From Flavobacterium psychrophilum (GTDB lineage Bacteria > Bacteroidota > Bacteroidia > Flavobacteriales > Flavobacteriaceae), in contig CAMDDB010000002.1 in the NCBI GenBank assembly GCA_945890865.1, positions 198,019 to 262,018 of the forward strand: a stretch of DNA of 64,000 bases, read 5' to 3'. Of the stretch, positions 6,008-64,000 are shown piece by piece. Under the pieces are notes generated by a model that was given only the letters and a program-made list of their open reading frames with translations, was not told the origin of the DNA and did no database searches. Position 1 is the first letter of the stretch, and every line of letters starts with the position of its first letter. A program made the translations under genes and the position numbers.

Positions 6008-6023
6008 TCTGCGCTATTTTAAT

Positions 6024-6054: not shown

Positions 6055-6765
6055 TACGTGAATTATTTCGTCGTCAATTAATAATTCTTCTCTTCTAAAG
6101 CGAAGAAAAATTTGCGCCACAGCTATGACATCTTTTTCGCAATACGTAATAATTCGATCGATATCTTTTTCCTCATAATATACTCGAGCTACTTCACTGC
6201 CATCAATATCATCTTTTGGAGAAGGCACTCCCAGTACTTTGGTCAATAATTTTAAAGAAGTGAAATGCTTATAATCGCCAAATTTCCATAATTCCAAAGT
6301 GTCTAAATGCGGAACTTCCCATGGTTTTTTCCCAAATAAATTGAGTTTGCTGGGCAACGAAATGCTGTTAATAATCATTCTTCTAGCGATGAACGGAATA
6401 TCAAATTCTTTGGCATTATGACCACAGAGTAAATGTTGGGGGCCATTAAAATGAGTAGTTAACAAATTTGAAAAATCATTCAGAATTTTTTTTTCATCAC
6501 CCCAAAAACTGGTGACTCTAAAATTTCGAATATCGGCTTTGTTGACAAAATAACCTACTGAAATGGTGATGATTTTGCCAAATTCGGCCCAAATACCAGC
6601 TCGTTCATAAAACGCTTCTGCCGAGATTTCGTCCTTTCTTTGATATTGTGTTTTTTGCTCCCAAAATTGACGTAAATCTTCGTCTAATTGGTCATAATGT
6701 TGCTGTTCGGGAACAGTTTCAATATCTATAAACAAGATATTGTTGAGGGGTGTTTTTTGAATCAT
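6052..6765 (-). CDS. 3'-5' exonuclease, DEDDy (PolB-like proofreading) family
   Basis: A 237-residue stand-alone exonuclease of the RNase H fold. ExoI carries Asp and Glu in FIDIETVPEQ near the N-terminus, ExoII is HNAKEFDIPFI and ExoIII is the Tyr-x(3)-Asp pattern YCEKDVIA, so all four acidic residues and the Tyr are present. No polymerase domain is attached. The family resembles the proofreading domain of family B polymerases and probably trims DNA or RNA 3' ends in the cytoplasm. It lies 18 bp downstream of the serine hydrolase gene and may share its transcript. It ends inside the terminator shared with the subtilase gene. The exact substrate is unknown. Confidence 0.85.
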   Translation of the reverse strand: MIQKTPLNNILFIDIETVPEQQHYDQLDEDLRQFWEQKTQYQRKDEISAEAFYERAGIWAEFGKIITISVGYFVNKADIRNFRVTSFWGDEKKILNDFSNLLTTHFNGPQHLLCGHNAKEFDIPFIARRMIINSISLPSKLNLFGKKPWEVPHLDTLELWKFGDYKHFTSLKLLTKVLGVPSPKDDIDGSEVARVYYEEKDIDRIITYCEKDVIAVAQIFLRFRREELLIDDEIIHV

Positions 6766-6783
6766 TTTTACTATTTTAGGGGG

Positions 6784-7950
6784 TTATCGAATTTTATTTT
6801 TGGATGCCAACATTTTATAGGTTTCAGCAACATAGGTATATAAATCATTGCTGTGCGGATCTTTTTTGGATTGTAACCCTTTTAAATGTCCTAAGCGTAC
6901 AATGATTAATTGGTCTTCCGGAATCACAATGACAAATTGTCCCAAGTGACCTCGCATGTAGTATAATTTCTTGCCCGAAATGGAATGCATCCACCATCCA
7001 TAGCCATATTGAACCGATTCTTTAAAACGGGGTGTAATGCATTTTTTAACAAAGGCAGGGTCCAAAAGTTGTTGCCCGTTCCACTGCCCGTTTTGCATAT
7101 ACAATTTCCCAAATCGTGCCAAATCGCGTGCATTGCTTGCAATACAACAATAGGCTTTTTCTGTACCGTCGGGTGCATGATCCAATTGCCATAAAGCTTC
7201 ATTTTCTGCTCCCATGGGTTGCCAAAAGTGTTTTGACACATAATGGGACAAATATTCTCCCGTTGCTTTTTCAATGCACATGGCCAGTAATTGGGTGGCA
7301 CCACTTAAATATTTAAAGGATTGTCCGGGTTTTTCATGGATGTTCAATCCGAGAATGACGTTGTTTAAATCATCATCAAAATATGCACGTGTCACTATAG
7401 AAAAAGGGCTATAGTATTTTTCGTCCCAACTCAAGCCTGAGGCCATTGAAGCCAAATCTCCAACGGTTACCTCTTGAGCATATTTTCCTTTTAGTTCCGG
7501 AAAAAAATCGACCACTTTTTGATCTAAATTTTTGATTTTTCTTTCCATAATGGCTTTTCCGAGCGCCATAGTCACCACGCTTTTGGCCATGGAAAACGAA
7601 TTGGTTTTCGAATTTTTGGTAAAGCCATCGAAATAACTTTCATGCCAAATACTATCATTTTTTATAATAACAAAGGCAACCGTTTTTAATTCTTGGTGCG
7701 TTTTTTCAAGCGTTTCAGTTGCCTTGCCAGTGTTGTAGTCTTTAGCAATTGCCCATGGCTGAGCAATGCCTTTTTTTATTTTGCGATTTGGAAATTCTTT
7801 GTAATCTTCTAAAAAAGCGGTGGTATGCCCTTTTAAATAAACGGTTTTCACGGCGCGTAATAAATAATCAACATCAAATAGATACAGTATAACAATAAGG
7901 GCTGTAAAACCAACTGCTACCCACTTTAGTAATTTTTGCAAGAATTTCAT
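6784..7950 (-). CDS. serine hydrolase, beta-lactamase/PBP class C fold
   Basis: A 388-residue protein with an N-terminal membrane anchor (about residues 8-26) and a periplasmic class C beta-lactamase-like domain. The nucleophile motif S-x-x-K is SMAK (Ser120, Lys123). A Tyr-containing second motif (FKYLSGAT) and a C-terminal H-x-G motif (GHLGQF) follow. The family includes esterases, D-aminopeptidases and DD-peptidase relatives, and few members act on beta-lactams, so no resistance role should be read into it. A longer frame would begin at TTG 7956; the ATG at 7948-7950 is preferred. The gene sits between the alkyltransferase gene and the exonuclease gene on the same strand. Confidence 0.85.
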   Translation of the reverse strand: MKFLQKLLKWVAVGFTALIVILYLFDVDYLLRAVKTVYLKGHTTAFLEDYKEFPNRKIKKGIAQPWAIAKDYNTGKATETLEKTHQELKTVAFVIIKNDSIWHESYFDGFTKNSKTNSFSMAKSVVTMALGKAIMERKIKNLDQKVVDFFPELKGKYAQEVTVGDLASMASGLSWDEKYYSPFSIVTRAYFDDDLNNVILGLNIHEKPGQSFKYLSGATQLLAMCIEKATGEYLSHYVSKHFWQPMGAENEALWQLDHAPDGTEKAYCCIASNARDLARFGKLYMQNGQWNGQQLLDPAFVKKCITPRFKESVQYGYGWWMHSISGKKLYYMRGHLGQFVIVIPEDQLIIVRLGHLKGLQSKKDPHSNDLYTYVAETYKMLASKNKIR

Positions 7951-49733: not shown

Positions 49734-50087
49734 ATGTTTGATAAAGTTAAAAACCAAGATCATTTATTAGGTAAAACGAATAGGATAGTTGAAGGGACGA
49801 TCATTACCGGAGATATCATTACTAAAGCAGACTTTAGATTGGATGGAATATTGACGGGGAATTTCACCTCTGAAGGGAAAATCGTAATTGGCCCTACAGC
49901 AGCAGTTCTTGGAGATATTATTTGTAAAAGTATTGATATAGAAGGAAAATTTTCAGGCAAACTCCAAGCTGAAGGGATGTTAAATGTAAAGTCTAAAGCA
50001 CACATAACCGGTGAGGTAATTGTAGGAAAACTTGCGGTGGAACCTGGGGCAACTTTTGACGCCAGTTGTGAGATGAGAAATTTATAA
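49734..50087 (+). CDS. bactofilin-family polymer-forming cytoskeletal protein
   Basis: A 117-residue bactofilin. The right-handed beta-helix core is read from regular repeats such as EGTIITGDIITKADFRLDGILTG, GKIVIGPTAAVLGDIICKSIDIEGKFSG and AHITGEVIVGKLAVEPGATF. Bactofilins polymerise without nucleotide into filaments that set cell shape or position. It lies 22 bp after sprE. The last 15 bp of the gene are part of a duplication repeated 63 bp downstream. Confidence 0.9.
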   Translation: MFDKVKNQDHLLGKTNRIVEGTIITGDIITKADFRLDGILTGNFTSEGKIVIGPTAAVLGDIICKSIDIEGKFSGKLQAEGMLNVKSKAHITGEVIVGKLAVEPGATFDASCEMRNL

Positions 50088-50169
50088 TTTCGAATCCAAC
50101 GAATTCAAAAAGGAAAATAGTTTATCATGAGTTAAATGAGAAATTTATAATTTCGAATTCAACGAATCC
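50073..50169 (+). repeat. 34-bp direct repeat, two copies
   Basis: Copy 1 is 50073-50106 (end of the bactofilin gene and spacer) and copy 2 is 50136-50169 (just before atpZ). They differ at two bases. The period is 63 bp. Copy 2 recreates the reading of the last bactofilin codons (ATGAGAAATTTATAA) without a gene before it. Confidence 0.9.
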
Positions 50170-50176
50170 ATAAGAA

Positions 50177-50443
50177 ATGGATATTGAGTTAGATGAAATC
50201 GAATTAAGCACCAAAATAATGGCTAACAACAAAAAACAAAACAATAAATGGCTAGCCTTAATTAATATTCCAATCCAAATGGGGATTGTAATTTTTGTGT
50301 TTTCCTATTTTGGTAAATGGCTGGACATACACTATGGAAATTCAAGCAGTACTTATACAAAAATAGTAACATTAATAGGAGTTTTTCTCGCACTTTATAA
50401 TGTTATTAGACAAGTAAATCAAATGAATAAAAATGACAACTAG
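50177..50443 (+). CDS. AtpZ/AtpI-family protein
   Basis: An 88-residue small membrane protein with two helices (about residues 28-48 and 57-80) joined by a short loop, of the kind found at the head of bacterial ATP synthase operons. The motif GKWLDIHYGNSSSTYTKIVTLIG is typical. AtpI/AtpZ proteins help assemble the c-ring or act in Mg2+/Ca2+ uptake. The gene overlaps the next by 11 bp. Confidence 0.85.
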   Translation: MDIELDEIELSTKIMANNKKQNNKWLALINIPIQMGIVIFVFSYFGKWLDIHYGNSSSTYTKIVTLIGVFLALYNVIRQVNQMNKNDN

Positions 50444-50819
50444 TTTGGAAATCATAAAAAAGCTAACGGCAGCGGCTTTATTTTTTTTAATTATTCATGT
50501 CTTGGTTTTTAATCTTCCTTTTTTAAAAGAAAAAGAAACTGAATTTTATTATACCATACTAAATCTTTATAGTCTATTTTTTCTCTTTTCATTATTAATA
50601 TTGATAGTGGTAAGTAGAATTTCAAAACATAACTTTGACAACACAGGAATGTTTTTTATGATTGCAACAAGCATAAAAATGGGTGTTGCTTTTTTTTTAG
50701 TGCGCCCTATTCTATATCGTGAAGACAATAACATTGAGAAAATTAACTTTTTTGTAATTTTTATACTATTTCTTCTATTCGAAACAATAATTGCGGCAAA
50801 ATTTTTGAATAAAAAATAG
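50433..50819 (+). CDS. DUF6168-family membrane protein of the ATP synthase operon
   Basis: A 128-residue protein with four predicted membrane helices and few polar loops. It sits where other bacteria keep AtpR or AtpI, between AtpZ and AtpB, and overlaps the upstream gene by 11 bp. The family name DUF6168 is my recollection of how Flavobacteria annotate this position. A role in ATP synthase assembly is an inference from place only. Confidence 0.65.
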   Translation: MTTSLEIIKKLTAAALFFLIIHVLVFNLPFLKEKETEFYYTILNLYSLFFLFSLLILIVVSRISKHNFDNTGMFFMIATSIKMGVAFFLVRPILYREDNNIEKINFFVIFILFLLFETIIAAKFLNKK

Positions 50820-50842
50820 TCAAAAAAACGCAATAATTTAAT

Positions 50843-50871
50843 TTGGAATATAAAGAAAAAATGTACCTTTG
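50843..50871 (+). promoter_or_regulatory. canonical Bacteroidota promoter for atpBEFHAG
   Basis: TTG (50843-50845), an 18-bp spacer and TACCTTTG (50864-50871) match the -33/-7 consensus. Transcription should begin near 50878, about 36 bp before the atpB start. It gives the main subunits a promoter of their own, separate from atpZ. Confidence 0.7.
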
Positions 50872-50913
50872 CACCAAAATTTATGAACCTCATAGTTTAA
50901 GTTTACAAAAAAT

Positions 50914-52077
50914 ATGGTGATTTCAAAAAAACCACTTCAGATTATACTTGCAATTGCAATGGCTTTAATGCCGTTTGTAAATCATGCAAATTCTTCAAAA
51001 GATTCAATTAGAGTTGTGGCTCATTCAGCAACAAATACAACTGAAGCTACACCAGAAGAAGCGCATGGACATGGTGAACCAAAAGATTTAAAATCAAAAA
51101 TCAACGCCTACATTGCGCATCACGTTTTAGACGCTCATGAATTTTCATTGTTTGAAGACGAAGCAACAGGAAAGCATTATGGATTTCCACTTCCCATAAT
51201 TCTTTGGGATAAAGAAAGCGGACTACACGTCTTTTCTTCATCTAAATTTAATCACGGTCATGATGTTGCTGAATCTAATGGCAGTTACTACAAATTAGGG
51301 CACGACGAAAAAATATATAAAACTGATGCATCAGGAACTTTACTAGGTGATGAGCATCATCCAGAAAATGTAAAACCAATTGATTTATCAATTACGAAAG
51401 CGGTTTTTTCGATGTTATTAGTAGCATTTTTAATGTTTTTCTTGTTTAAAGGGTTGGCTAATTCGTATGTTAAAAATGGCGGAATCGCTTCTGGTATAGG
51501 AAGATTATTTGAACCTATTGTATTGTATATACGTGATGATATTGCGATTCCAAACATTGGAGAAAAACACTATAAAAAATACATGAGTTTCTTATTAACC
51601 GTATTTTTCTTTATATGGTTCTTAAATATTATTGGTTTAACACCACTAGGAATCAACGCAACAGGAAATATAACAGTTACAGCATGCTTAGCTATTATTG
51701 TATTTTTAATTACAAATCTTACTGCCAATAAAAATTATTGGGGGCACATTTTTTGGATGCCAGGAGTTCCAACACTAATGAAATTTATTTTAGCACCCAT
51801 CGAATTATTAGGTGTAATTATCAAGCCTTTTTCATTAATGATACGTTTGTATGCTAATATTTTTGCAGGACACATTGTATTAATGAGTTTGATTGCCTTA
51901 ATGTTTATTTTTAAAAGTTGGTTAGGAAGTAGTTTGTCTTTTTTACTTTCATTTGCAATTTCATCAATAGAAATATTAGTAGCGTTGCTACAAGCATATA
52001 TTTTCACAATGTTATCTGCCTTGTTCTTTGGAGCAGCAGTAGAAGAGCATCATCATGAAGGGGCCGAGCATCATTAA
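50914..52077 (+). CDS. atpB: F0F1 ATP synthase subunit a
   Basis: Subunit a of the F0 sector, 387 residues, forms the proton half-channels. It is much longer than the E. coli protein (271) owing to an N-terminal export signal and about 120 residues of extra, His-rich periplasmic sequence (HGHGEPKD; HDVAESNGSYYKLGHDEK). The essential Arg lies in PFSLMIRLYANIFAGHI. The C-terminus ends in a His/Glu-rich tail (EEHHHEGAEHH). Such N-terminal extensions are usual in Bacteroidota. It is followed by atpE after 83 bp. Confidence 0.95.
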   Translation: MVISKKPLQIILAIAMALMPFVNHANSSKDSIRVVAHSATNTTEATPEEAHGHGEPKDLKSKINAYIAHHVLDAHEFSLFEDEATGKHYGFPLPIILWDKESGLHVFSSSKFNHGHDVAESNGSYYKLGHDEKIYKTDASGTLLGDEHHPENVKPIDLSITKAVFSMLLVAFLMFFLFKGLANSYVKNGGIASGIGRLFEPIVLYIRDDIAIPNIGEKHYKKYMSFLLTVFFFIWFLNIIGLTPLGINATGNITVTACLAIIVFLITNLTANKNYWGHIFWMPGVPTLMKFILAPIELLGVIIKPFSLMIRLYANIFAGHIVLMSLIALMFIFKSWLGSSLSFLLSFAISSIEILVALLQAYIFTMLSALFFGAAVEEHHHEGAEHH

Positions 52078-52142
52078 TATGTCCAGTGGATATATTATGC
52101 GAGGAGCCAGCAGGTGTTCTGACAAATAAATTGAATGTTTAA

Positions 52143-52361
<219 letters not shown>

Positions 52362-52371
52362 TAGAAAAACT

Positions 52372-52402
52372 CAAAAGCTATAACGGTTGGTTATAGCTTT
52401 TG
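52372..52402 (+). promoter_or_regulatory. perfect 13-bp hairpin between atpE and atpF
   Basis: CAAAAGCTATAAC, loop GGTTG, GTTATAGCTTTTG. It lies 10 bp after atpE. The T-run after it is short (the stem itself ends in four T), so it could be a leaky terminator or an mRNA-stabilising hairpin. Confidence 0.7.
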
Positions 52403-52448
52403 TTTCTAAATTAAAAAGATTACATTACATATTATAATTTAAAATACT

Positions 52449-52949
52449 ATGGATAAATTAATAAATGATTTTGGTTTTGGATTGTTCATTTGGGCATCTT
52501 TAATTTTCATTGGATTAGTTTTGCTTTTGAAAAAATTTGCATGGAAACCAATTCTTGATGCAGTAAATGAAAGAGAAGAAGGAATTAAAAATGCTTTGCT
52601 TTCTGCCGAAAATGCAAAAAGAGAAATGCAAAATCTTAAATCTGATAACGAAAAATTATTAGCAGAAGCCAGAGCTGAACGCGATAGTTTAATGAAAGAA
52701 GCGCGTGAAATCAAAGATAAAATGATTAACGATGCTAAATCTGAAGCTCAAGCAGCTGGAGAAAAAATGATATCTCAAGCTAAAGCAGCTATTGAAAGCG
52801 AAAAAAATGCAGCTATGGCAGAATTGAAAAATCAAGTTTCTTCATTGTCACTAGAAATTGCTGAAAAATTGTTACAAGAAGAATTATCTAACAAAGAAAC
52901 TCAAACTAAATTAATTGAGAAAATGTTAGGGGATGCAAAATTAAACTAA
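52449..52949 (+). CDS. atpF: F0F1 ATP synthase subunit b
   Basis: Subunit b, 166 residues, peripheral stalk. One N-terminal membrane helix (about residues 8-28) and a long, charged, coiled-coil-like helix with regular Glu/Lys/Ala pattern ([20 protein letters not shown]). Length and place between atpE and atpH are standard. The atpH start follows 4 bp after its stop. Confidence 0.95.
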
Positions 52950-52953
52950 TATC

Positions 52954-53487
52954 ATGGCAGGAACTAGAGCAGCAATACGATACGCTAAAGCCATTTTGGA
53001 TAGTGCAAAAGAAAACAATAACGCACCCGCTGTAAATGCAGACATGACTTCAATTGTAAACGCAATTAAAGACAGTGCTGAATTGAAAGAATTTTTGCAA
53101 AGTCCTGTAGTGAAAGGAGAAATAAAATTTTCTTCTGTAACTGAAATTTTTGCTTCTGCACAAAAGGAAACAAAAAGCTTATTTAAATTGCTTTTAGTAA
53201 ATAAAAGATTTGAATTATTGCAAGATGTTGCCCTACAATATAATGCATTACATGATGAACTCAACGGAATAGAAATTGCCAAAGTAACAACTGCTTTTCC
53301 AATTACTCCTGAGTTAGAAGCAAAAGTATTAGCAAAAATCGCAACCTTTTCAACAAAAAATATAACCATCCAAAATATTATAGATCCGGCCATCATAGGA
53401 GGATTTATTTTAAGAATGGGTGACAAACAATATAATGCTTCTGTTGCCAACAGATTGCAAAATTTAAAAAGAGAATTTAGTAATTAA
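52954..53487 (+). CDS. atpH: F1 ATP synthase subunit delta
   Basis: Subunit delta, 177 residues, joins the F1 head to the peripheral stalk. The N-terminal helical domain starts AIRYAKAILDSAKENN, and the C-terminal IIDPAIIGGFILRMGDKQYNASVANRL is the conserved family end. It starts 4 bp after atpF and is followed by atpA after 23 bp. Confidence 0.95.
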   Translation: MAGTRAAIRYAKAILDSAKENNNAPAVNADMTSIVNAIKDSAELKEFLQSPVVKGEIKFSSVTEIFASAQKETKSLFKLLLVNKRFELLQDVALQYNALHDELNGIEIAKVTTAFPITPELEAKVLAKIATFSTKNITIQNIIDPAIIGGFILRMGDKQYNASVANRLQNLKREFSN

Positions 53488-53510
53488 TATCCCATTAAAG
53501 ATACATCACA

Positions 53511-55088
53511 ATGGCTGAAATTAAACCTGCTGAAATATCAGCAATATTAAAACAACAATTATCTGGTTTTGAATCAGGTGCTACGTTAGAGGAAGTTGGA
53601 ACAGTACTTCAAGTAGGAGACGGTATCGCTCGTGTTTACGGATTGTCAAACGCTCAATATGGAGAGTTAGTACAATTTGAAAACGGATTAGAAGCAATCG
53701 TATTAAACTTAGAGGAAGACAATGTTGGGGTGGTACTTTTAGGACCATCAACAGGAATCAAAGAAGGTTCAACAGTAAAAAGAACACAACGTATTGCTTC
53801 TCTTAAAGTAGGAGAACAAGTAGTAGGTCGTGTTGTAAACACACTAGGAGAACCAATTGATGGTAAAGGCCCAATCGGTGGTGAGTTATACGAGATGCCA
53901 TTAGAAAGAAAAGCGCCTGGAGTAATCTTCCGTCAACCCGTAACTGAACCATTACAAACCGGAGTAAAAGCAGTAGATGCAATGATTCCTGTAGGTAGAG
54001 GTCAACGTGAGTTGGTAATTGGTGACCGTCAAACGGGTAAATCAACCGTTTGTATTGATACCATCTTAAATCAAAAAGAATTTTATGATGCAGGTCAACC
54101 TGTATTCTGTATATATGTTGCCATCGGACAAAAAGCGTCTACGGTAGCAGGAATCGCAAAAATGTTAGAAGAAAAAGGTGCCATGGCGTATACCGTTATT
54201 GTTGCTGCAAATGCTTCTGATCCAGCTCCAATGCAAGTATATGCTCCTATGGCAGGTGCTGCAATTGGGGAGTATTTTAGAGATTCAGGTCGTCCAGCGT
54301 TGATTGTTTATGATGATTTATCTAAACAAGCTGTTGCGTATCGTGAGGTGTCTTTATTATTAAGAAGACCACCAGGACGTGAGGCATATCCTGGAGACGT
54401 TTTTTACTTACACTCTCGTTTATTAGAAAGAGCATGTAAAGTGATCGCTAACGACGAAATCGCTAGAAACATGAATGACTTACCAGATTCTATCAAAGGA
54501 ATCGTTAAAGGGGGTGGTTCGTTAACAGCGTTACCAATTATCGAAACACAAGCGGGTGACGTTTCTGCCTATATCCCAACCAACGTAATTTCGATTACAG
54601 ACGGACAAATTTTCTTAGATGGTGATTTATTCAACTCGGGAGTTCGTCCTGCAATTAACGTAGGTATTTCGGTATCTCGTGTAGGGGGTAATGCACAAAT
54701 TAAATCCATGAAAAAAGTAGCAGGTACTTTAAAATTAGACCAAGCGCAATTCCGTGAATTAGAAGCGTTTGCAAAATTTGGTTCTGACTTAGATGCCGTT
54801 ACTTTAAACGTAATTGAAAAAGGAAAAAGAAACGTTGAAATCTTAAAACAAGGTTTAAACTCGCCTTTCACAGTAGAAGATCAGGTAGCTATTATTTATG
54901 CAGGTTCTAAAAACTTGTTGCGTAATGTACCCGTTGTAAAAGTTAAAGAATTTGAAAAAGATTTCTTAGAATACTTAAACGCAAAACACAGAGATACATT
55001 AGATGCACTTAAAGCAGGTAAATTTGATGACAATATCACTGACGTTTTAGAAAAAGTAGCGAAAGAAATTTCAGCAAAATATAATTAA
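53511..55088 (+). CDS. atpA: F1 ATP synthase subunit alpha
   Basis: Subunit alpha, 525 residues, the non-catalytic nucleotide-binding subunit of F1. The P-loop is [13 protein letters not shown], and the signature [17 protein letters not shown] (with the arginine finger Arg in SVSRVGG) is present. Codon use is visibly more biased than in neighbouring genes, in line with high expression. It is followed by a repeat-bearing spacer and atpG. Confidence 0.97.
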
Positions 55089-55100
55089 TTAGTCAATTAG

Positions 55101-55152
55101 TCAATGTGTCAATTAGACAATTAATTGGCACATTGATAAATTGGCACATTGA
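55101..55152 (+). repeat. short inverted and direct repeats between atpA and atpG
   Basis: TCAATGTGTCAATT (55101-55114) is nearly the complement of AATTGGCACATTGA, which occurs twice (55123-55136 and 55139-55152). The left arm can pair with either right arm, giving two alternative hairpins in the mRNA just before the atpG start. Confidence 0.8.
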
Positions 55153-55164
55153 CAAATTAACAAA

Positions 55165-56022
55165 ATGGCAAACTTAAAGGAAATACGTAATAGGATTACT
55201 TCTGTTTCATCTACGATGCAAATTACATCGGCGATGAAAATGGTTTCTGCTGCAAAATTAAAAAAAGCGCAAGATGCTATTACAGCTATGCGCCCTTATG
55301 CAGAAAAACTAACCGAGCTATTACAAAACTTAAGTGCAACCCTTGAAGGAGAAGTAGGTGGTGCTTTTACAGCTCAAAGAGAAGTAAAAAAAGTACTTAT
55401 TGTTGCGGTTACATCAAACAGAGGTTTGTGTGGTGCCTTCAACACGAATGTAATTAAACAAGCGAAAGCAGTTGCCGAAACTTACGCAGGAAAACAAGTA
55501 GATATTTTTGCCATTGGTAAAAAAGGAAACGATGTTTTGCGTAAAACAATCAACGTAATCGAAGTTAACAATACCATTTTTGACCAATTAACCTTTGAAA
55601 ACGCTTCAGACATTGCACAACAGTTAATGGATAAATTTGTAGCGGGCGATTACGATAAAATAGAAATCGTGTACAACGAATTTAAAAATGCGGCAACCCA
55701 AATTGTAAGAACACAACAGTTTTTACCTTTAGCTCCCATTGTGGGGATTGAGGTAGTAGCATCTGATTATATTTTTGAACCCTCTAAAGAAGAAATTGTG
55801 TTGACTTTGATTCCAAAATCATTAAAAACACAATTGTACAAATCAATTAGAGATTCATTTGCAGCAGAACACGGAGCGCGTATGACCGCAATGCATAAAG
55901 CAACCGATAACGCTACAGAATTAAGAGACCAATTAAAATTAACCTACAACAAAGCGCGTCAAGCAGCTATTACAAACGAAATCCTTGAGATCGTTGGTGG
56001 AGCAGAAGCTTTGAAAAGCTAA
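55165..56022 (+). CDS. atpG: F1 ATP synthase subunit gamma
   Basis: Subunit gamma, 285 residues, the central rotor shaft. The N-terminal ISSTMQITSAMKMVSAAKL-like helix (here SVSSTMQITSAMKMVSAAKL) and the C-terminal ATDNATELRDQLKLTYNKARQAAITNEILEIVGGAEAL are the family ends that form the coiled coil. It is the last ATP synthase gene here: a strong terminator follows, and atpD (beta) and atpC (epsilon) are not in the window. Confidence 0.97.
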   Translation: MANLKEIRNRITSVSSTMQITSAMKMVSAAKLKKAQDAITAMRPYAEKLTELLQNLSATLEGEVGGAFTAQREVKKVLIVAVTSNRGLCGAFNTNVIKQAKAVAETYAGKQVDIFAIGKKGNDVLRKTINVIEVNNTIFDQLTFENASDIAQQLMDKFVAGDYDKIEIVYNEFKNAATQIVRTQQFLPLAPIVGIEVVASDYIFEPSKEEIVLTLIPKSLKTQLYKSIRDSFAAEHGARMTAMHKATDNATELRDQLKLTYNKARQAAITNEILEIVGGAEALKS

Positions 56023-56041
56023 TTTTAATTCAAATATTTAT

Positions 56042-56070
56042 AAAAAGTCCCGATTTATTCGGGACTTTTT
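56042..56070 (+). terminator. intrinsic terminator of the ATP synthase operon
   Basis: AAAAAGTCCCGA, a 5-base loop and TCGGGACTTTTT followed by T-rich DNA: a perfect 12-bp stem 19 bp after atpG. Confidence 0.92.
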
Positions 56071-56220
56071 TGTTTTTATATTTATGGGTAACAAACTCTT
56101 GTTATACTCCTTAAAATTATGCAACATTGCCCAGCGGTGCTTTTCTTTAGTTTATAAACTGCTTTTAACCGTTGCTTTATTTCGTTTTAACTTGTTTAAT
56201 TTTTGTACAGCAATAAATTA

Positions 56221-56255
56221 ATTGCCCTAGGGAAAGTGTGTCATTGCCCTAGAGA
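56221..56255 (+). repeat. direct repeat ATTGCCCTAG, two copies
   Basis: ATTGCCCTAGGGA at 56221-56233 and ATTGCCCTAGAGA at 56243-56255, 22 bp apart. A related CATTGCCCAG lies further left at about 56123. Confidence 0.75.
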
Positions 56256-56374
56256 AATTAAAAAACGCAACCGCTTAAACACAACTTATTGTATTAATAA
56301 ATTAAAATTAGTTACTTATGGTTGCAAATTTTAAAAATATTTACTATGTTTGGTTAATTAATACAACACAACCA

Positions 56375-56419
56375 TAGTTGAGCAGAGCTACCCAAAAAAT
56401 AGACAGCTTTGCTCAACTA
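56375..56419. repeat. 15-bp inverted repeat with 15-base loop
   Basis: TAGTTGAGCAGAGCT (56375-56389) and AGCTTTGCTCAACTA (56405-56419) pair over all 15 positions in RNA, one of them G-U. The loop is A-rich. No T-run follows on the plus strand, so it does not look like a simple terminator. Confidence 0.85.
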
Positions 56420-56714
56420 AACAGTAAAAAACTGAGTATATATACAAGATGCAAGAAACCTTATGACAACCGAAACGTGAAAAAAGTAAGCTAAAGAAAG
56501 AAAATCATTAGATTAGCGTTTAAGTACAGCCAACGCATAGGCAAGCCAAAGAGCAAAACAAATAGAAACGACTAACTATTGAAAGAGTAATATAGAAGAA
56601 ATGGAACAAATTGAGCTGTAAAATGTTTTGAGCAACAAAAACGGCAGATTATTAATTAACAATTTAAAGTGGAAGTCTTTGCCCTGCCAGAAGATGGAAA
56701 CACACAATAAAAAA

Positions 56715-56948
56715 ATGAAAAATTTAAAATTAGTTACATTGGTAACATTGCTTTCAGCTTCATCTGTATTTGCAAATAGTTGGCAACAGATAGGTAGTAC
56801 TTGTCAAAATCGTTTTAGCTTTTTTGGCTTGGTTGAAGTTTGGTCAGGTCATATTACTGAAGCAGAGTATGATAACTTTGGAAATGCAACTGGTAATACA
56901 AGAAAAGTTTCTTGTACATCAGATGGTAATTGGGATTGGTTTTGGTAG
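56715..56948 (+). CDS. small secreted peptide of unknown family (77 residues)
   Basis: A 77-residue precursor. A clear signal peptide (MKNLKLVTLVTLLSASSVFA) is followed by a mature part of about 57 residues that begins NSWQQIGSTCQNRF, has two cysteines (in GSTCQN and KVSCTSDG) and ends in the Trp-rich tail GNWDWFW. It matches no family I know. The ATG at 56715 is chosen because it opens the signal peptide; upstream in-frame starts, including a TTG at 56628, would add a polar leader. The next gene, 52 bp downstream, encodes a secreted CarboxypepD_reg-like protein, and the one after a thioredoxin-fold protein that could act on the two cysteines. The product and its use are unknown. Confidence 0.7.
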   Translation: MKNLKLVTLVTLLSASSVFANSWQQIGSTCQNRFSFFGLVEVWSGHITEAEYDNFGNATGNTRKVSCTSDGNWDWFW

Positions 56949-57000
56949 AATATTAATTATTGGGGATTGAAAAAATCAATCCCCTTAAATTTTATAATAT

Positions 57001-58053
57001 ATGTATAAATTTTTGTTGTTTTTCACATCTCTATATATTTATTCTCAACCTTTGGTTTTAAAAGTAACATCTGATGATAATGTACTTTTAGAGAATGTTT
57101 TAATATATAGTGAAAATAAATTTTTAGGAATGACTGACGTAAATGGTCAAATTCCTTTAAATGAGAATTTTAGAATTTTAAAAATTGTTAAAGAAAATTA
57201 TGAAGATATTGAGTTTTCAATTGAAGAGGTGAGAAAGTTAAATTGGAAAATCAAACTTTTTCCAATTAAGTTAATAGAATTAGATGAAATCGAAATAATA
57301 CAATCTAAAGAAGACCCAATTGTTATATTAAACAAGATTAAAGAATCAAGATACAAACAAAGGTCAAAAGTTCCTGCCTATTATCAATCCAAAGTACTAT
57401 TTAAGTGCAACGATGAAATTTTATATCATTTTAACAATGTATTTTTTGTTTCAAACGAATTAAAAATACATAAAAAAGATAATATTATATACAAAGGTTA
57501 TCGTAAAACTAATTTTAACAATAATCTTATAGAAGTTTTTAAGTTTTCAAACAAAGAATGTCAAATTCCAGTTCAAAGTAGTATATATTGTACACTTGGA
57601 GAATATGTTTTATCACCAATTTTTGATGGGAAATTATATAAATATCAATTAATGATTATTGAAGATTCATATTTATTGAAATTTTACCCAAAAAAAGACA
57701 ATTCAAATCTATTATATGAAGGTTATTTTATAGTTGATAAAAATGATTTTGGAATTTTAGAATTAAACTTAAATTTAGTAACAAGTAAAAATAATATTTG
57801 GAAAACTAACTCTTACGATTTAAAAACTAAGTATGAATACTTGGTTAATGAGGATAGTTTTATGTTTAAATTTTCTAAAAATAATAATCAATATTTTTTA
57901 GAAAGTAGTAGCAGAAATTATTCTTGTACGCAAATAAAAGGCAACCATATTGGTCAAAATTTCAAATTTAGTTTTTATAATGAAGAAACAATTAACCATA
58001 GTGGCTTAGAATTTATAGATTTTGATTTTATAACCAATAAATATAAATTATGA
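57001..58053 (+). CDS. secreted CarboxypepD_reg-like protein of unknown function
   Basis: A 350-residue exported protein. A signal peptide (MYKFLLFFTSLYIYSQ) is followed by an Ig-like carboxypeptidase-regulatory domain at about residues 17-95 (NVLIYSENKFLGMTDVNGQIPL). A longer beta-rich region begins with ILNKIKESRYKQRSKVPAYYQSKV, a pattern seen in Bacteroidota surface proteins with this N-terminal domain. No catalytic motif or T9SS tail is visible, and the end (TNKYKL) is not a barrel strand with a terminal Phe. The base composition is strongly AT-rich compared with flanking genes. It overlaps the thioredoxin-fold gene by 4 bp, so the two are coupled. Confidence 0.7.
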   Translation: MYKFLLFFTSLYIYSQPLVLKVTSDDNVLLENVLIYSENKFLGMTDVNGQIPLNENFRILKIVKENYEDIEFSIEEVRKLNWKIKLFPIKLIELDEIEIIQSKEDPIVILNKIKESRYKQRSKVPAYYQSKVLFKCNDEILYHFNNVFFVSNELKIHKKDNIIYKGYRKTNFNNNLIEVFKFSNKECQIPVQSSIYCTLGEYVLSPIFDGKLYKYQLMIIEDSYLLKFYPKKDNSNLLYEGYFIVDKNDFGILELNLNLVTSKNNIWKTNSYDLKTKYEYLVNEDSFMFKFSKNNNQYFLESSSRNYSCTQIKGNHIGQNFKFSFYNEETINHSGLEFIDFDFITNKYKL

Positions 58054-58490
58054 AAAAAATAATTTTATTAGTATTATTTGTAATTGTTACATTTATGATT
58101 GTTCAAACTATTAGGTATAATTCAAAAGGAAGTAATGTTCAAAATTTAGAATTTACTAATTTAAACAACCAAAAAGTAAAATTAAAAGATGTTTTTAATA
58201 AGACGAACAATAAATATATTTTATATATTCTACCAGATTGTGAAAGTTGTATAGATAAGATTAAAGAATTTTCGAGTATTGATAATTCCCAATTAATTGT
58301 TGTTTCTGTTGGTTTGAAAAATTTTAATTACAATCAGTATTATCTAAATAATCTTAAAGTTAATAAAATTATTTTTTTGATTGATAAGGAAAATTCTTTT
58401 TATAAATACTTTGGTTTTGGATTTACTGAAAATTTTCCAACCTTAGTTAAATATGATTATAAAAAAGATAGTTATGTAAAGATGTATTGA
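58050..58490 (+). CDS. membrane-anchored thioredoxin-fold protein (TlpA/redoxin-like)
   Basis: A 146-residue protein with one N-terminal membrane helix (about residues 2-20) and a thioredoxin-like domain. The redox-active pair is CESC in LPDCESCIDKIKEF, and the cis-Pro loop appears as FGFTENFPTLVKYD. The domain order fits TlpA/ResA proteins, which reduce or shuffle disulfides outside the cytoplasm. CESC is not a common redox motif, so the potential may differ from TlpA. The gene starts inside the last codons of the preceding gene (ATGA overlap). Together with the two-cysteine peptide upstream it suggests a shared task, which is an inference. Confidence 0.75.
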   Translation: MKKIILLVLFVIVTFMIVQTIRYNSKGSNVQNLEFTNLNNQKVKLKDVFNKTNNKYILYILPDCESCIDKIKEFSSIDNSQLIVVSVGLKNFNYNQYYLNNLKVNKIIFLIDKENSFYKYFGFGFTENFPTLVKYDYKKDSYVKMY

Positions 58491-58572
58491 GGTTTTATAT
58501 GCTAAACAGAAAGGCATCTTGCAACAGCCATTTTGCGTAATTGCTGGGTCAGTGATAAAATCAAACCCCGAT

Positions 58573-58595
58573 GGCGCGGAATTGTATTCCGTGCC
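58573..58595. repeat. REP-like short palindrome
   Basis: GGCGCGGAAT, loop TGT, ATTCCGTGCC: a 10-bp stem with one G-T pair, GC-rich in AT-rich surroundings and followed by a run of A. The sequence type (GCGCGGA...TCCGTGCC) resembles short dispersed palindromes of Bacteroidota genomes. It marks the right end of the accessory stretch. Confidence 0.65.
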
Positions 58596-58662
58596 CGCAA
58601 AAAAAAAATTCTCAAAAACACTTCAATTCACAAACCTTTTTTTCCGCATTTACTTTTATTGG

Positions 58663-58670
58663 TATATTTG
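58663..58670 (+). promoter_or_regulatory. possible -7 element for the S9 peptidase gene
   Basis: TATATTTG matches TAnnTTTG and lies 21 bp before the start codon. No -33 TTG is seen at a good distance. Confidence 0.4.
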
Positions 58671-58691
58671 TAAGAATCAAAATATTTTCCA

Positions 58692-61031
58692 ATGAAAAAA
58701 TACTGCGGTTTCTTCCTCTTACTTTTCACCTTTTTTGTTCAGGCGCAACAGCTTCGTTTAGAAGACATCATGAAAGGCGACGAATTCATCGGGCACCAAC
58801 CTTCAAACCACCGTTGGTCTATCGATGGGCAAACCGTTTTATTCGATTGGAATCCGAATAACGAAATAGGAAATAGCACGTATTTCTGGAATGTTAATTT
58901 AAAAACACCTCAAAAAGTAACGGCATCAAATCCTGTTTATGATGTTGATTTCATGCCCACGCAAAAAGAGTATGATGTGGAGTATTATACCAATCAAGGG
59001 GTTTTATATGCGTATACCAAATCCACAAAAAAGACCAAGAAAGTCATCCAATCTGCTGATCGAATTAGTGCAGTGCAAAGAAGTACCCATCCGAATATCC
59101 TCTTTTTTCAACAAAACAGAAATCTATATCAATGCAATACCAAAGATTTTTCGATGGTTCTGTTGACCAATTTTAAATCGGGAAAAGAAAATAAATCGAA
59201 AGAAGAAGATTCGTTTTTGAAAGACCAACAAAAACAATTGTTTCAATTTGTGCGCGATGAAACAAAAGCAGACGATTGGTATGCAGCACAATCCAAATCC
59301 AAAAAAGAGAAGTTTCCGAAAGAAATTTTCTATGATAAATCAGTAGTTGAACAAGTAAAAGCATCACCCGATGGAAAATTTGTAACGTTTCGACTTTCTG
59401 ATTATCCTACTGAAACACCAACCAATGTAGCAAATTTTATTACCGATGACGGATTTACGCAAAGTGATAAAGCACGCGCAAAAGTTTCGACAGCTAATTT
59501 CAGCAAACACAAATTCGGAATTTTCAATGTAGCAAAAGACACTACGTATTACGTTTCGTTTGCCCATTTAACTGGCATCAAAAACGCTCCAAAATACTAC
59601 CAAGACTACGAAAATTTAAAAGACAAATCGGATTATGAAACCGCAATTGTCATGATGAGTCCAGCGTATAGCCAAGACGGAAAAAATGCGGTTTTAGAAA
59701 TCAGAAGTCAAGACAACAAACACCGCTGGATCGTGAAATTGGATGTAGCTTCAGGTACAATAACCGAATTAGAGCACCAACACGACGACGCTTGGATTGG
59801 CGGACCTGGAATTCCGGGCTATAGTTTTAGTGGCGGAACGTTAGGATTCATTGATAATTCGACTTTTTATTTTCAATCGGAAGCAACAGGGTTTTCGCAT
59901 TTGTACACGTATAATTTGAAAACCAAACAAAAAGAAGCGTTAACAAAAGGCAATTGGGAAGTTCGTGAGGGAACATTATCCAACGATAAAAAATCATTTT
60001 ACATCACCACTACCACCAAGCATCCCGGCAACAGAAGTTTTTATAAATTGGACATCGCTTCCAAAAAAATGACCGGAATTGTAACAAATGATGGCAATTA
60101 TGAAGTAGAAGTATCTCCCGATGAAAAAACACTTTTGGTGCGCTATTCGTATAAAAACAAACCGTGGGAATTGTTTGTGGGAGCGAATAAACCAAATGCC
60201 GATTTAAAACAAATTACGTTTTCGACAACTGCTGAATTCAAAAAATACAATTGGAAAACACCTGAGGTGATAACGTTCAAAGCCGAAGACGGAACGACAG
60301 TTTATGCCCGTTTGTACCAACCAAAATCGGAGAATAAGAACAAAGCGGCGGTTATTTTTGTGCACGGCGCGGGGTATTTGCAAAATGCGCACAATTACTG
60401 GAGCACCTACCACAGAGAATATATGTTTCACAATTTGTTAACCGATTTGGGTTATACTGTTTTAGATATCGATTATAGAGCGAGTGATGGTTATGGTCGC
60501 GATTTTAGAACCGGAATTTACCGCCACATGGGTGGAAAAGATCTATCCGATCAATTGGATGGAAAGAACTATTTGGTTCAAAATTTAGGAATTGATGCCA
60601 ACCGAGTAGGAATGTATGGAGGATCGTATGGCGGATTCATCACCTTGATGGCATTGTTAACGAAACCAGGCGAATTTAAAGCGGGAGCCGCTTTGCGTTC
60701 GGTGACCGATTGGGCGCATTACAATCATGGCTATACGTCAAACATATTGAATTTTCCAGAAACCGATCCTGAAGCATACAAGAAAAGTTCCCCGATTTAT
60801 TTTGCCAATAATTTACAAGACAAGTTGGTAATGCTTCACGGAATGGTAGACGACAACGTGCAATTCCAAGACATTGTTCGATTGACACAACGCTTTATTG
60901 AATTGGGAAAAAAAGACTGGGATTTAGCCGTTTTTCCAGTGGAAGCACATGGCTTTAAAAGAACCTATTCTTGGATCGACGAATACCGACGAATATTATC
61001 GTTATTCAACCAAAATCTACTTCAAAAATAA
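58692..61031 (+). CDS. S9 family serine peptidase (dipeptidyl-peptidase IV-like)
   Basis: A 779-residue secreted peptidase. The signal peptide MKKYCGFFLLLFTFFVQA is followed by an eight-bladed-type beta-propeller region (about 25-530) and an alpha/beta-hydrolase domain. The nucleophile is Ser645 in GMYGGSYGGF, the acid lies in the DDNV segment at 720-723 and the His is residue 753 in EAHGF. It would release dipeptides or short peptides in the periplasm. It is followed after 1 bp by the GNAT gene, so the two may be co-transcribed. Confidence 0.94.
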   Translation: MKKYCGFFLLLFTFFVQAQQLRLEDIMKGDEFIGHQPSNHRWSIDGQTVLFDWNPNNEIGNSTYFWNVNLKTPQKVTASNPVYDVDFMPTQKEYDVEYYTNQGVLYAYTKSTKKTKKVIQSADRISAVQRSTHPNILFFQQNRNLYQCNTKDFSMVLLTNFKSGKENKSKEEDSFLKDQQKQLFQFVRDETKADDWYAAQSKSKKEKFPKEIFYDKSVVEQVKASPDGKFVTFRLSDYPTETPTNVANFITDDGFTQSDKARAKVSTANFSKHKFGIFNVAKDTTYYVSFAHLTGIKNAPKYYQDYENLKDKSDYETAIVMMSPAYSQDGKNAVLEIRSQDNKHRWIVKLDVASGTITELEHQHDDAWIGGPGIPGYSFSGGTLGFIDNSTFYFQSEATGFSHLYTYNLKTKQKEALTKGNWEVREGTLSNDKKSFYITTTTKHPGNRSFYKLDIASKKMTGIVTNDGNYEVEVSPDEKTLLVRYSYKNKPWELFVGANKPNADLKQITFSTTAEFKKYNWKTPEVITFKAEDGTTVYARLYQPKSENKNKAAVIFVHGAGYLQNAHNYWSTYHREYMFHNLLTDLGYTVLDIDYRASDGYGRDFRTGIYRHMGGKDLSDQLDGKNYLVQNLGIDANRVGMYGGSYGGFITLMALLTKPGEFKAGAALRSVTDWAHYNHGYTSNILNFPETDPEAYKKSSPIYFANNLQDKLVMLHGMVDDNVQFQDIVRLTQRFIELGKKDWDLAVFPVEAHGFKRTYSWIDEYRRILSLFNQNLLQK

Positions 61032-61032
61032 G

Positions 61033-61458
61033 ATGCAACAGTTAATTGAATTGACCACAAAAGCTGAAATGCTGGAGCAGTTGCCCATCATCCAACAATT
61101 GTATTCCGAATTTACGCAAGAAATTTATGGGAATATGTTAGACCAAATGATTCCACATAATTACAAGCAATTAGTTGTAGTGAAAAATGGAAACACTATA
61201 GGTTTGGCTGGATTTTGGATAGGAACCAAATTGTGGAGTGGTAAATATTTGGAATTGGATAATGTGGTGGTGCACGAAGATTTTCGTTCCCAAGGCATCG
61301 GAAGCATTATGACCGAATATTTGAATCAAAAAGCTAGCAATGAAAATTGCAACATGGTTGTTTTAGATGCCTACACTACTAATTTTGGTGCCCAAAAATT
61401 CTACATGAATCACGGATTTGTTCCAAAGGGTTTTCACTTTATTAAATTTGTAAAATAA
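61033..61458 (+). CDS. GNAT-family N-acetyltransferase
   Basis: A 141-residue acyltransferase. The acetyl-CoA-binding loop is DFRSQGIGSIMTEYL (the R-x-x-G-x-G/A motif), with GNTIGLAGFWI before it and TTNFGAQKFYMNHGFVPKG after it. The start at 61033 lies 1 bp after the S9 peptidase stop; a start 28 codons earlier would sit inside that gene and is rejected. The substrate is unknown. Confidence 0.88.
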   Translation: MQQLIELTTKAEMLEQLPIIQQLYSEFTQEIYGNMLDQMIPHNYKQLVVVKNGNTIGLAGFWIGTKLWSGKYLELDNVVVHEDFRSQGIGSIMTEYLNQKASNENCNMVVLDAYTTNFGAQKFYMNHGFVPKGFHFIKFVK

Positions 61459-61463
61459 ACAAA

Positions 61464-61916
61464 ATGAATAAAATAGTTGCCCTTTTATTTTTGATTTCGA
61501 TGGCAAGTTGCAGCAGTCAAGAACAAGCTGTTCATGAAGGCAACATGAAAACGTCTTATGAAACTTGGGTAGCTGGTGTTCGTGGCGGAGGAAGCGGGAT
61601 CCATTTTTATGTTGATTTTAAAACAGCTTTAAGCGATCAAATAGAGCTGAAAAAAGTTGTTTTCAGAGGCTATGAAGTGCCCTTTGAGAAAATGGATAAC
61701 CTTCATTTTATGGCAAGAATAAAAACAGAAGGGAATCAGCAAAAACAGGAGGGCGATGATTCTCAAATATACACCAGCCCAAAAAATGCTTTAACCTTGG
61801 GTGAAAACGAGGCGATTTTAATATTTTCAAAAAAAGCAAAAGAATTTAATGTTAAAATTAAACGGGTTACCGAAAAACCAATGCTAGAATATCCTTCGGC
61901 AAAACCAAAGTTTTAA
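61464..61916 (+). CDS. lipoprotein of unknown function
   Basis: A 150-residue protein with a lipoprotein signal (ISMASCSSQ). The mature part has VAGVRGGGSGIHFYVDFKT and KVVFRGYEVPFEKM, which suggest a beta-sandwich with a conserved Gly-rich turn; no family is named. It starts 5 bp after the GNAT gene and precedes the flippase by 26 bp. I see no catalytic motif and propose no function. Confidence 0.72.
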   Translation: MNKIVALLFLISMASCSSQEQAVHEGNMKTSYETWVAGVRGGGSGIHFYVDFKTALSDQIELKKVVFRGYEVPFEKMDNLHFMARIKTEGNQQKQEGDDSQIYTSPKNALTLGENEAILIFSKKAKEFNVKIKRVTEKPMLEYPSAKPKF

Positions 61917-61942
61917 TTACATTTGTTATCTAATAATTAGGA

Positions 61943-63403
61943 ATGAGTCTTTATAAAAGTCTTTTTAAACAAACAGCTATTTACGGTTTAGCGACCGTTT
62001 TGCCCAGAATTATAAGTTTTATTCTGAATCCAATCCTCGTTTATTATTTAACTGATTCAAGCGAAATGGGAAAAGTCTCCGTGATTTTTTCCTACTTGGT
62101 TTTTTTCAATGTCGTGATGTCGTATGGAATGGAAACAGCATTTTTTCGTTTTTATAATTCAGAATCCAACAAAAGTAAGGTCTTATCAACCGCTACCATC
62201 TCTATGTTTTGGTCCACTATTGCTTTTTTTGTTGTATTGTTGCTTTTTAGAAAAAACCTAGCGCTATGGTCTAAAATTAATGTAGAATATATTGTTTTTG
62301 CTATTTGGATAGTAGCACTTGACGCCCTAGCGATTATACCGTTTTCTAAAATAAGAGCTGAAAAACGACCCAAAAAGTATGCATTAATTAAGATTTCTAA
62401 CGTATTAATTTACGTGTTGTTGAATATTTTTTTCTTGGCATTCTTACCTCAATTAGCTGCCAATTCTAATAATGTATTGCTAGAAACGATTTATTACAAT
62501 GATTTTCAAATTGGATATGTATTTATTTCGGGATTACTAGCAAGTTTAGTCACCTTGTTGTTGGTATTGCCCGATTATTTCAAAATAAAATGGCAGTTTG
62601 ATGTGGCGCTTTGGAAAAAAATGATGCACTATGGTTTGCCTGTTTTAGTCGCCGGAATTGCCTTTGCCATCAATGAACACTTTGATAAAATTCTTTTGGA
62701 CTGGATGCACGTCGATATGGCCGATATTGGAGCCTATTCGGCTTGTTATAAAATTGGGATGTTTATGGTGTTGTTTAGAACAGCCTATACTTTAGGAATT
62801 GAACCCTTTTTCTTCAGTCATGCCAGCAATGAAAATGCACCACAAACCTATGCTACCATTACGAAGTATTTTGTCATTTTTGGCTCTTTCATTTGCTTAG
62901 GCGTTATCGTATTTGCCGATCTATTAAAATTAATTTTAGTCCCTAAAGAAACCTATTGGACCGCCATGAATGTGGTGCCATTGATCGTTTTAGCCAACTT
63001 CTTTCTAGGAATTTACACCAATTTATCAGTATGGTACAAATTAGTTGATAAGACTAAAATTGGGGCGTATATATCTATTGTAGGCGCTATAGTAACCTTA
63101 GTATTAAATGCGTTGTTAATTCCACACATTAGTTATATGGGATCGGCAATTGCCACCATCGTTGCTTATGGCTCCATGATGTTGATTTCGTATACGATGG
63201 GACAAAAAAAGTATCCCATTCCGTATGATACTAAAGCCATTTTTACCTATTTAGGATTAGCAATTGTGCTTTCGGGAATATCATTTTACATCACTATTTT
63301 GCGGGAGACCTACATTTTTGGTATTGTCTCTATCTTGTTTTTTGCGTACTTTGTGTACCAAAACGAAAAAGAAACTATTGTAAAGATCATCAGAAGAAAA
63401 TAA
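61943..63403 (+). CDS. Wzx-like polysaccharide flippase (oligosaccharide flippase family)
   Basis: A 486-residue inner-membrane protein with 12-14 predicted helices of the MOP superfamily. The N-terminal [26 protein letters not shown] is the usual start of these flippases, which move lipid-linked sugar units across the membrane. No glycosyltransferases are adjacent, so its glycan is unknown. The dut gene begins 1 bp after the stop, indicating an operon. Confidence 0.9.
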
Positions 63404-63404
63404 T

Positions 63405-63839
63405 ATGCAAATTAAAATCATCAACAAATCCAACCATGAGTTGCCCAATTATGAAACCATTGCTTCAGCAGGGATGGATTTAAGAGCAAATATCGCAGCG
63501 CCCATTACCTTAAAATCACTAGAACGCACTATTATAAAAACCGGACTTTTTATCGAATTGCCCATTGGATATGAAGCACAAGTGCGCCCTAGAAGCGGAT
63601 TGGCCGCCAAAAAAGGCATCACGGTATTGAATTCGCCTGGAACAGTTGATGCTGATTATCGTGGCGAAATTGGAGTGATTTTAGTAAATTTATCCACAGT
63701 AGATTTTATCATCGAAAACGGAGAACGCATCGCGCAATTAATCATCGCGAAACACGAACGCGCCGAATGGCTGGAAGTTACCGAATTATCGGGAACCTCA
63801 AGAGGTGAAGGCGGGTTTGGCAGTACAGGGGTGAAGTAA
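63405..63839 (+). CDS. dut: dUTP diphosphatase (dUTPase)
   Basis: Trimeric dUTPase, 144 residues, converts dUTP to dUMP, keeping uracil out of DNA and supplying dTMP synthesis. The five motifs are in order: [47 protein letters not shown] and the C-terminal [13 protein letters not shown]. Length is standard. It follows the flippase gene by 1 bp. Confidence 0.97.
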
Positions 63840-63875
63840 AACCTCAACATTCAAAATTCCAAGTTGAATATTCGT

Positions 63876-63893
63876 TGTTCAAAATGTTGAACA
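63876..63893. repeat. small palindrome in the dut downstream spacer
   Basis: TGTTCAA, loop AATG, TTGAACA, set among related TTGAAT and ATTCAA words. Such palindromic spacers commonly border S23-type genes, as here. Confidence 0.55.
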
Positions 63894-63953
63894 TTCAATT
63901 ATGATTAACGAATTTTGAAATAGTAAACAGTAACATAAATAATTATATAAGCC

Positions 63954-64000
63954 ATGAAAAAATTTGATTTACACGAAAGACTAATTGATTTTGCAGTACA
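63954..64000 (+). CDS. four-helix-bundle protein (S23/IVS family), 5' end only
   Basis: Only the first 15 codons are inside the window: MKKFDLHERLIDFAV. This beginning is typical of the four-helix-bundle proteins related to the 23S rRNA intervening-sequence protein, which are scattered among Bacteroidota housekeeping genes and often flanked by short palindromes, as seen at 63876-63893. The gene runs off the right edge, so the call is provisional. Confidence 0.6.
   Translation, partial: MKKFDLHERLIDFAV

Follow-up and report, generated by a model that had tools for sequence, protein, structure and literature searches.

The 64,000-nucleotide stretch analyzed here (the window) contains a small gene cassette between the ATP synthase gene atpG and an S9 peptidase gene (Table 1). 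It has ~1.7 kb of coding sequence. The first gene encodes a putatively secreted peptide of 77 amino acids (aa), the second an exported-looking protein of 350 aa, and the third a redoxin with a thioredoxin fold and a predicted membrane anchor. The window is Flavobacterium-like, with best atpG matches 93% identical among 388 genomes from the genus of F. macrobrachii.

The cassette and its genes

The three genes are codirectional, and no long open reading frames (ORFs) lie between the atpG terminator and the peptide gene. The 350-aa gene and the redoxin gene share 4 bp (ATGA, 58050 to 58053). Six flanking genes of the window were scanned. They encode ATP synthase alpha, AtpG, the S9 peptidase, a GNAT protein, an unmatched protein of 150 aa, and a polysaccharide flippase.

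All three are real genes. Database relatives were retrieved with E values down to 9e-41 for the peptide and 4e-210 for the 350-aa protein. Nonsynonymous divergence (dN) was lower than synonymous divergence (dS) for each gene in all three pairwise comparisons of the window with its counterparts in F. cyanobacteriorum (locus L001) and F. macrobrachii (L002) and of these with each other; dS was large, and the values are rough. A sequence-only reading of this DNA had described the peptide with its two cysteines and Trp-rich tail, the overlap, and two larger genes richer in AT than their neighbors, and each of these was borne out. The peptide gene has a guanine-plus-cytosine (GC) content of 33%, the 350-aa gene one of 21.6%, and the redoxin gene one of 18.9%, against 31 to 43% in 500-bp windows across atpA/atpG and the S9 gene. 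The AT-richness repeats elsewhere. The GC fraction of the 350-aa gene was 0.28 in L001 and 0.24 in L002, and that of the redoxin gene was 0.25 and 0.22. Low GC content therefore tracks the family and is by itself no proof of recent transfer.

Table 1. Coordinates of the cassette genes and associated features in the window and in three other loci
Feature	Sequence	Coordinates	Strand	Remarks
End of atpG	Window	56022		Followed by terminator-like stem, ~56043-56069
Accessory islet	Window	56087-58554 (edges approximate)		Differs from the atpG-S9 junction of close relatives; blastn against 12 junctions
Direct copies (two) of ATTGCCCTAGNGAAA	Window	56221-56257	+	22-bp period; precedes the promoter-like site and the peptide gene
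Promoter-like site TTG-N20-TATGTTTG	Window	56322-56352	+	Pattern-scan match; the peptide start lies ~360 bp downstream
Secreted peptide gene, 77 aa	Window	56715-56948	+	Sec-type signal, by eye
Stem-loop GGGGATTGA/TCAATCCCC	Window	56946-57003	+	Between peptide and 350-aa genes; -14.9 kcal/mol, z -2.8 against dinucleotide shuffles
Exported protein gene, 350 aa	Window	57001-58053	+	Signal peptide, transthyretin-like/NTE domain, half-barrel-like part
Redoxin/thioredoxin-fold protein gene, 146 aa	Window	58050-58490	+	Membrane-anchored; CESC; FPT cis-Pro-type loop
S9 peptidase gene	Window	Starts 58692		Downstream of the redoxin gene
Trio, F. cyanobacteriorum	L001	Peptide 490-723, 350-aa gene 817-1878, redoxin 1875-2318		
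XRE regulator gene	L001	30-383	-	Divergent; 106-109 bp upstream of the peptide gene (both loci)
Trio, F. macrobrachii	L002	Peptide 5732-5962, 350-aa gene ~6001-7050, redoxin 7050-7499		
XRE regulator gene	L002	5272-5622	-	Divergent
Trio, genome G760	L058	Peptide 7448-7672, 350-aa gene 6332-7384, redoxin 5863-6345	-	

Recurrence of the trio and turnover at its site

The trio is conserved as a unit. Gene order is identical in four genomes (the window, L001, L002, and L058), and the surroundings differ. L001 and L002 were the two loci confirmed, from 520 pattern stretches, when genome contigs were profiled with the 350-aa profile A2. The trio of G760 (L058) is flanked by an aldehyde-dehydrogenase-like gene and a lipase-like gene (named by eye). 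The redoxin gene of this trio, though absent from the query, is the best redoxin match of the whole genome (4.5e-21). Genomes G609 and G468 carry adjoining peptide and redoxin genes without the middle gene, and no relative of the 350-aa protein was found genome-wide in either at an E value of ≤0.001. In Flavobacterium sp. j3, the peptide and the 350-aa protein carry neighboring tags (WFZ85_02845 and WFZ85_02850). The sequence-only reading had asked whether the trio is conserved as a unit, and it would have been refuted had the three genes been together in no other genome. Three other genomes carry the trio.

Identity to the window proteins in L001, L002, and L058 was 28 to 61% for the peptide and 30 to 53% for the 350-aa protein. 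At such low identities, the trios do not represent one recent transfer. Peptide and 350-aa distances correlate over eight loci (r = 0.84, P = 0.009), with the pairing of three of the eight presumptive; without L058, on which the correlation rests, r was 0.24 and P was 0.11. A further 350-aa/redoxin pair of F. cyanobacteriorum lies where a contig ends (L108, 1 to 1168). Its 350-aa copy is truncated there and shows a stop close to the cut.

The genome searches covered samples drawn evenly from larger groups, as a loose first look that does not prove absence. The peptide profile A3 matched 41 of 398 genomes of the genus at an E value of ≤0.1, and five were kept: the center (G002), one already known (G001), and the new genomes G760, G609, and G468. 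In these, the match spans model positions 1 or 2 to 77, the ORF is short, and a redoxin gene lies alongside. A match in G562 (L036) is a 391-aa protein and was judged to be chance. The other 35 were set aside uninspected, with E values of 5.5e-4 or worse, partial coverage, internal stops, or long ORFs. Three new genomes with the peptide were thus retrieved among the 396 members that were neither the center nor previously known. Profile A9 matched 3 of 395 genomes of the class, including the center G002; the matches L063 and L064 were judged to be chance from their ORF lists. In the family, A9 matched 6 of 397 genomes, of which only the center, G760, was convincing and the other five were uninspected. 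The 350-aa profile matched 54 of 397 genomes of the family, full-length only in the center, G002. Fifty-two of the other matches lie within the first ~140 positions, and one (G261) lies at 201 to 259.

The DNA around the trio is not conserved with it. Similarity between L001 and L002 is limited to a divergent XRE regulator gene and the trio, and past the redoxin gene nothing is common; the L001 contig stops 32 bp beyond the XRE gene, and the comparison covers the redoxin side only. The window, compared over positions 50001 to 64000, has only parts of the trio in common with either locus.

The atpG-S9 junction was compared in 12 relatives (L071 to L078 and L080 to L083) with atpG 87 to 93% identical, over up to 1,500 bp downstream of atpG. 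L079 (atpG match only) and L084 to L100 (atpG only, except L084, with a far diverged S9 gene) were omitted. When window positions 56023 to 58691 were compared by blastn, the first 54 to 81 bp matched in all 12 relatives, and 63 to 137 bp near the right end matched in all but L071. The atpG terminator is kept in 12 of 12, and the S9 gene is reached within the stretch in 10. None of the three genes was found in the L071 to L100 stretches (tblastn, E ≤ 1e-2). The same 12 junctions contain other small genes. Their cargo comprises 11 predicted proteins of 88, 75, 125, 136, 70, 92, 146, 139, 114, 332, and at least 393 aa, the longest of which may continue beyond its stretch. The 332-aa protein looks fasciclin-like. 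L073 was omitted from this set, as its 125-aa gene is, by eye, nearly that of L075. Pairwise comparison of the 11 gave a single marginal cross-match (L072/L082, 25% identity, E = 0.024). With differing genes between kept edges, the junction is a slot of gene turnover, occupied in this strain by the trio. This low-GC slot collects unrelated small AT-rich genes. Comparison alone is enough to collect small uncharacterized genes from it.

Such a slot could also hold three AT-rich accessory genes that are coincidental neighbors with no joint function, as the unrelated genes gathered there in relatives would allow. The identical order in four genomes, the 4-bp overlap in the window, the pairing of peptide and redoxin without the middle gene in two more genomes, and the low identities between trios all argue against coincidence, and we find it scarcely credible.

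The encoded proteins and putative control elements

(a) Predicted secreted peptide. Cleavage is predicted after SVFA (residue 20), with the signal read by eye and not by a predictor. The mature part would contain 57 aa, with Cys30, Cys67, and the tail GNWDWFW. The family has 24 database members in all. The alignment (A10) contains 24 rows, namely 20 database proteins plus the window, L001, L030, and L032; P0001, P0002, P0004, and P0007 were left out. C30, G38, C67, G71, W75, and W77 are invariant. The mature parts contain 51 to 71 aa and 4 to 6 Trp, with a net charge of 0 to -4; 23 of the 24 are acidic, and one is neutral. By mean pairwise identity, the tail is the most conserved part (0.70), ahead of the mature part (0.51) and the signal (0.36). 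In every row, the last residue of the aligned signal is A or S. No GG occurs within the first 40 residues in 22 rows, and the GG of L032 and P0042 lies in the mature part. No Pfam family was matched above chance by the 24 rows. The peptide looks like a small exported protein with conserved cysteines, and it would be exported by Sec and lose its signal by cleavage.

The cysteine count is even in all 24 rows (2 in 21 rows and 4 in 3 long rows). Such an even count, in which the two extra cysteines come as a pair, favors disulfides. A classical cationic membrane-lysing peptide is disfavored by the negative charge. A strict outer membrane protein beta-signal was considered for the tail and dropped, as in 9 of the 24 rows the last Trp is followed by a terminal E, N, or Q.

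Two kinds of variant were seen. A longer subfamily (L031, L032, P0038, and P0042) contains an additional cysteine pair. In the two genomes read from it (L031 and L032), the redoxin is present and the 350-aa gene is absent. P0004 (130 aa, on a short contig) has an odd N-terminal extension, and Arg replaces its second Cys. It may be a damaged copy, a sequencing error or misread, or a real exception.

(b) Redoxin. The redoxin contains a single N-terminal hydrophobic helix and a conserved Pro-Thr downstream of CxxC. A redoxin-type CxxC protein is present in the window, L001, L002, L058, L059, and L060, and the motif in the six loci reads CESC, CESC, CESC, CDIC, CDIC, and CDYC. The Redoxin profile matched 5 of 5 aligned members at an E value of ≤1 (best, 1.3e-8). 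The window copy is weak (0.0093, below the curated cutoff), and the L058 copy gave 3.4e-12. Helix and profile together agree with the membrane-anchored thioredoxin-fold protein with CESC that had been read from the sequence. The redoxin probably forms the peptide's disulfide bond.

(c) The 350-aa protein. Eighteen relatives were retrieved at an E value of ≤0.01, plus a chimera. The structure model had a predicted local distance difference test (pLDDT) score of 84.2. The N-terminal domain (~17 to 93) has the transthyretin-like fold of carboxypeptidase-regulatory and SusC NTE domains; a carboxypeptidase-regulatory domain had been expected from the sequence. The C-terminal part (~102 to 332) looks, less securely, like a LolA/LolB/RseB half-barrel, with LolA/LolB and RseB/MucB rows at middling scores in the fold comparison. 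No Lol or RseB Pfam profile was matched in 19 aligned members at an E value of ≤1. LolA/LolB/RseB half-barrels are periplasmic or inner-leaflet carriers and sensors. The protein had earlier been called an outer surface protein. No lipobox is visible in it, and that label does not fit well; the protein is more likely periplasmic. A metagenomic protein, P0028 (310 aa), starts with ~36 residues of the beta-rich middle of the 350-aa protein and goes on as an unrelated membrane protein, through either recombination within the gene or an assembly artifact.

(d) Putative control elements. Upstream of the peptide gene, the window contains two direct repeats of ATTGCCCTAGNGAAA. The two matches compare with 0.04 expected in shuffles, for a pattern read off this very place, and no further copy turned up in the window when up to one mismatch was allowed. 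It may be a regulator site. The TTG-N20-TATGTTTG site is promoter-like and presumably of the Bacteroidota type. In each of the six loci compared, a stem-loop follows the peptide gene (z, -2.4 to -5.1), and its sequence differs among loci except in the related pair L059/L060. As a control, a stem of -9.5 kcal/mol or better was found in 7 of 17 other same-strand gaps (18 gaps including L059's own), so the pattern is suggestive only. It suggests that GGGGATTGA/TCAATCCCC is an attenuator or processing hairpin.

The XRE genes of L001 and L002 encode proteins that are 67% identical, and they lie inside the block common to both loci. They would suit a signaling module, in which neighbors would sense the mini-protein as a secreted pheromone tied to this divergent regulator, and the direct repeats of the window could belong to such a circuit. 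No XRE homologue of this kind was found in the 64-kb window, L058, L059, or L060 (tblastn, E ≤ 1), and the cassette encodes no histidine kinase or receptor. We regard the signaling module as decidedly unlikely.

Proposed function and comparison with known systems

The cassette may be a laterally moving unit that makes and matures a secreted, disulfide-bonded mini-protein with the help of a tethered oxidoreductase and a 350-aa escort. We consider this reading about evenly poised between right and wrong. The 77-aa precursor would pass through Sec, and its signal would be cut after residue 20. In the periplasm, the two cysteines would be joined by the neighboring redoxin, tethered to the inner membrane by its one helix with CxxC on the periplasmic side. 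The 350-aa protein might then shield the hydrophobic, Trp-tailed peptide and escort it through the periplasm; this is the weakest step, and it is dispensable in one lineage. The stem-loop after the peptide gene could leave the peptide in excess over its helpers. The final role would most likely be directed at other cells. Competition is favored over signaling or self-use because of the patchy distribution and the movement of the cassette. The acidity and conservation of the peptide weigh against a competitive role, as does the fact that no immunity gene is evident. A peptide export or maturation cassette had already been suggested from the sequence. It is still the best reading of the gene anatomy; the export and the maturation themselves we infer.

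A self-directed envelope module would place the same proteins differently. The mini-protein would stay in the producer's periplasm or outer membrane, where it might serve, for instance, as a redox-linked stress ligand. The 350-aa protein would be an RseB-like sensor that binds it, with no secretion to other cells. The RseB/MucB rows beside the LolA rows agree with this module, as does a mature peptide that is conserved across species and acidic, unlike a typical membrane-lysing peptide. The patchy distribution, the changing surroundings, and the variable slot suit an accessory trait over core envelope upkeep, and we think this module unlikely, if the most serious competitor to a secreted mini-protein.

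If the reading as a secreted, disulfide-bonded mini-protein is true, it would add to Flavobacterium an undescribed mini-protein family with a fixed maturation partner. It would also suggest that LolA-like carriers can be dedicated to a single peptide. In the literature searched, neither the peptide family nor its LolA-like partner appears to have been described. Because the cassette is small, each step could be tested in laboratory strains of Flavobacterium. A bolder version is a Sec-exported, disulfide-locked peptide weapon whose W-x-W-x-W tail decoys BamA, carried to the outer membrane by an NTE-LolA-like escort. Darobactin is reported to act on BamA by mimicking a substrate signal. The decoy is a long shot; it would imply that a single peptide has its own Lol-like route of delivery.

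NVEALA peptides (PF14055) are short exported peptides of Bacteroidota, and in this the cassette peptide is like them. Their profile matched 0 of 24 A10 rows at an E value of ≤1 and none of 5 host genomes, and it did match the control, Bacteroides ihuae. Assignment to NVEALA was dropped, in agreement with the sequence-only reading, which had placed the peptide outside that family.

The LolA/LolB/RseB superfamily resembles the predicted half-barrel of the 350-aa protein. LolA2 and LolB2 of F. johnsoniae are encoded in the flexirubin locus and have been suggested to serve the flexirubin pathway (PMC11885536), which makes them a precedent for dedicated Lol-like carriers. The 350-aa half-barrel differs in being fused behind a transthyretin/NTE domain, and the structural match is middling. 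Pediocin/PedC-type loci of Gram-positive bacteria (PMC4919988) also encode a disulfide peptide and a thioredoxin-fold accessory protein in one operon. They differ in peptide family, export route, and cell envelope and are without a LolA-like partner.

Bacteroidetocins are peptide toxins of Bacteroidales that act on BamA to kill Bacteroidota, and their loci (PMC6671954 and PMC8546649) are closer. In both systems, a small peptide of Bacteroidota with an even number of cysteines is encoded beside a dedicated thiol oxidoreductase gene (in the cassette the redoxin, with putative activity), and neither has an obvious immunity gene. Bacteroidetocins have a 15-residue leader cut after GG, whereas the cassette peptide has no double-glycine leader and has a Sec-type signal ending in A or S. 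They contain 42 aa, with a charge of +2 for one of the two, against 51 to 71 aa and 0 to -4 in the mature cassette peptides. They are encoded with an ABC peptidase-transporter, and the cassette has the NTE/LolA-like 350-aa protein instead; among the six flanking genes, its near neighbors in the window, no ABC transporter with a double-glycine peptidase was found. As leader, charge, and transporter differ, the cassette is not filed as a bacteroidetocin member. In PMC6671954, synthetic bacteroidetocins prepared without disulfide formation are still active. Strains deleted for the thiol oxidoreductase gene show attenuated activity, and the authors describe Bacteroides as being without general disulfide machinery. 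By analogy, the bacteroidetocin locus is the nearest working precedent for the cassette.

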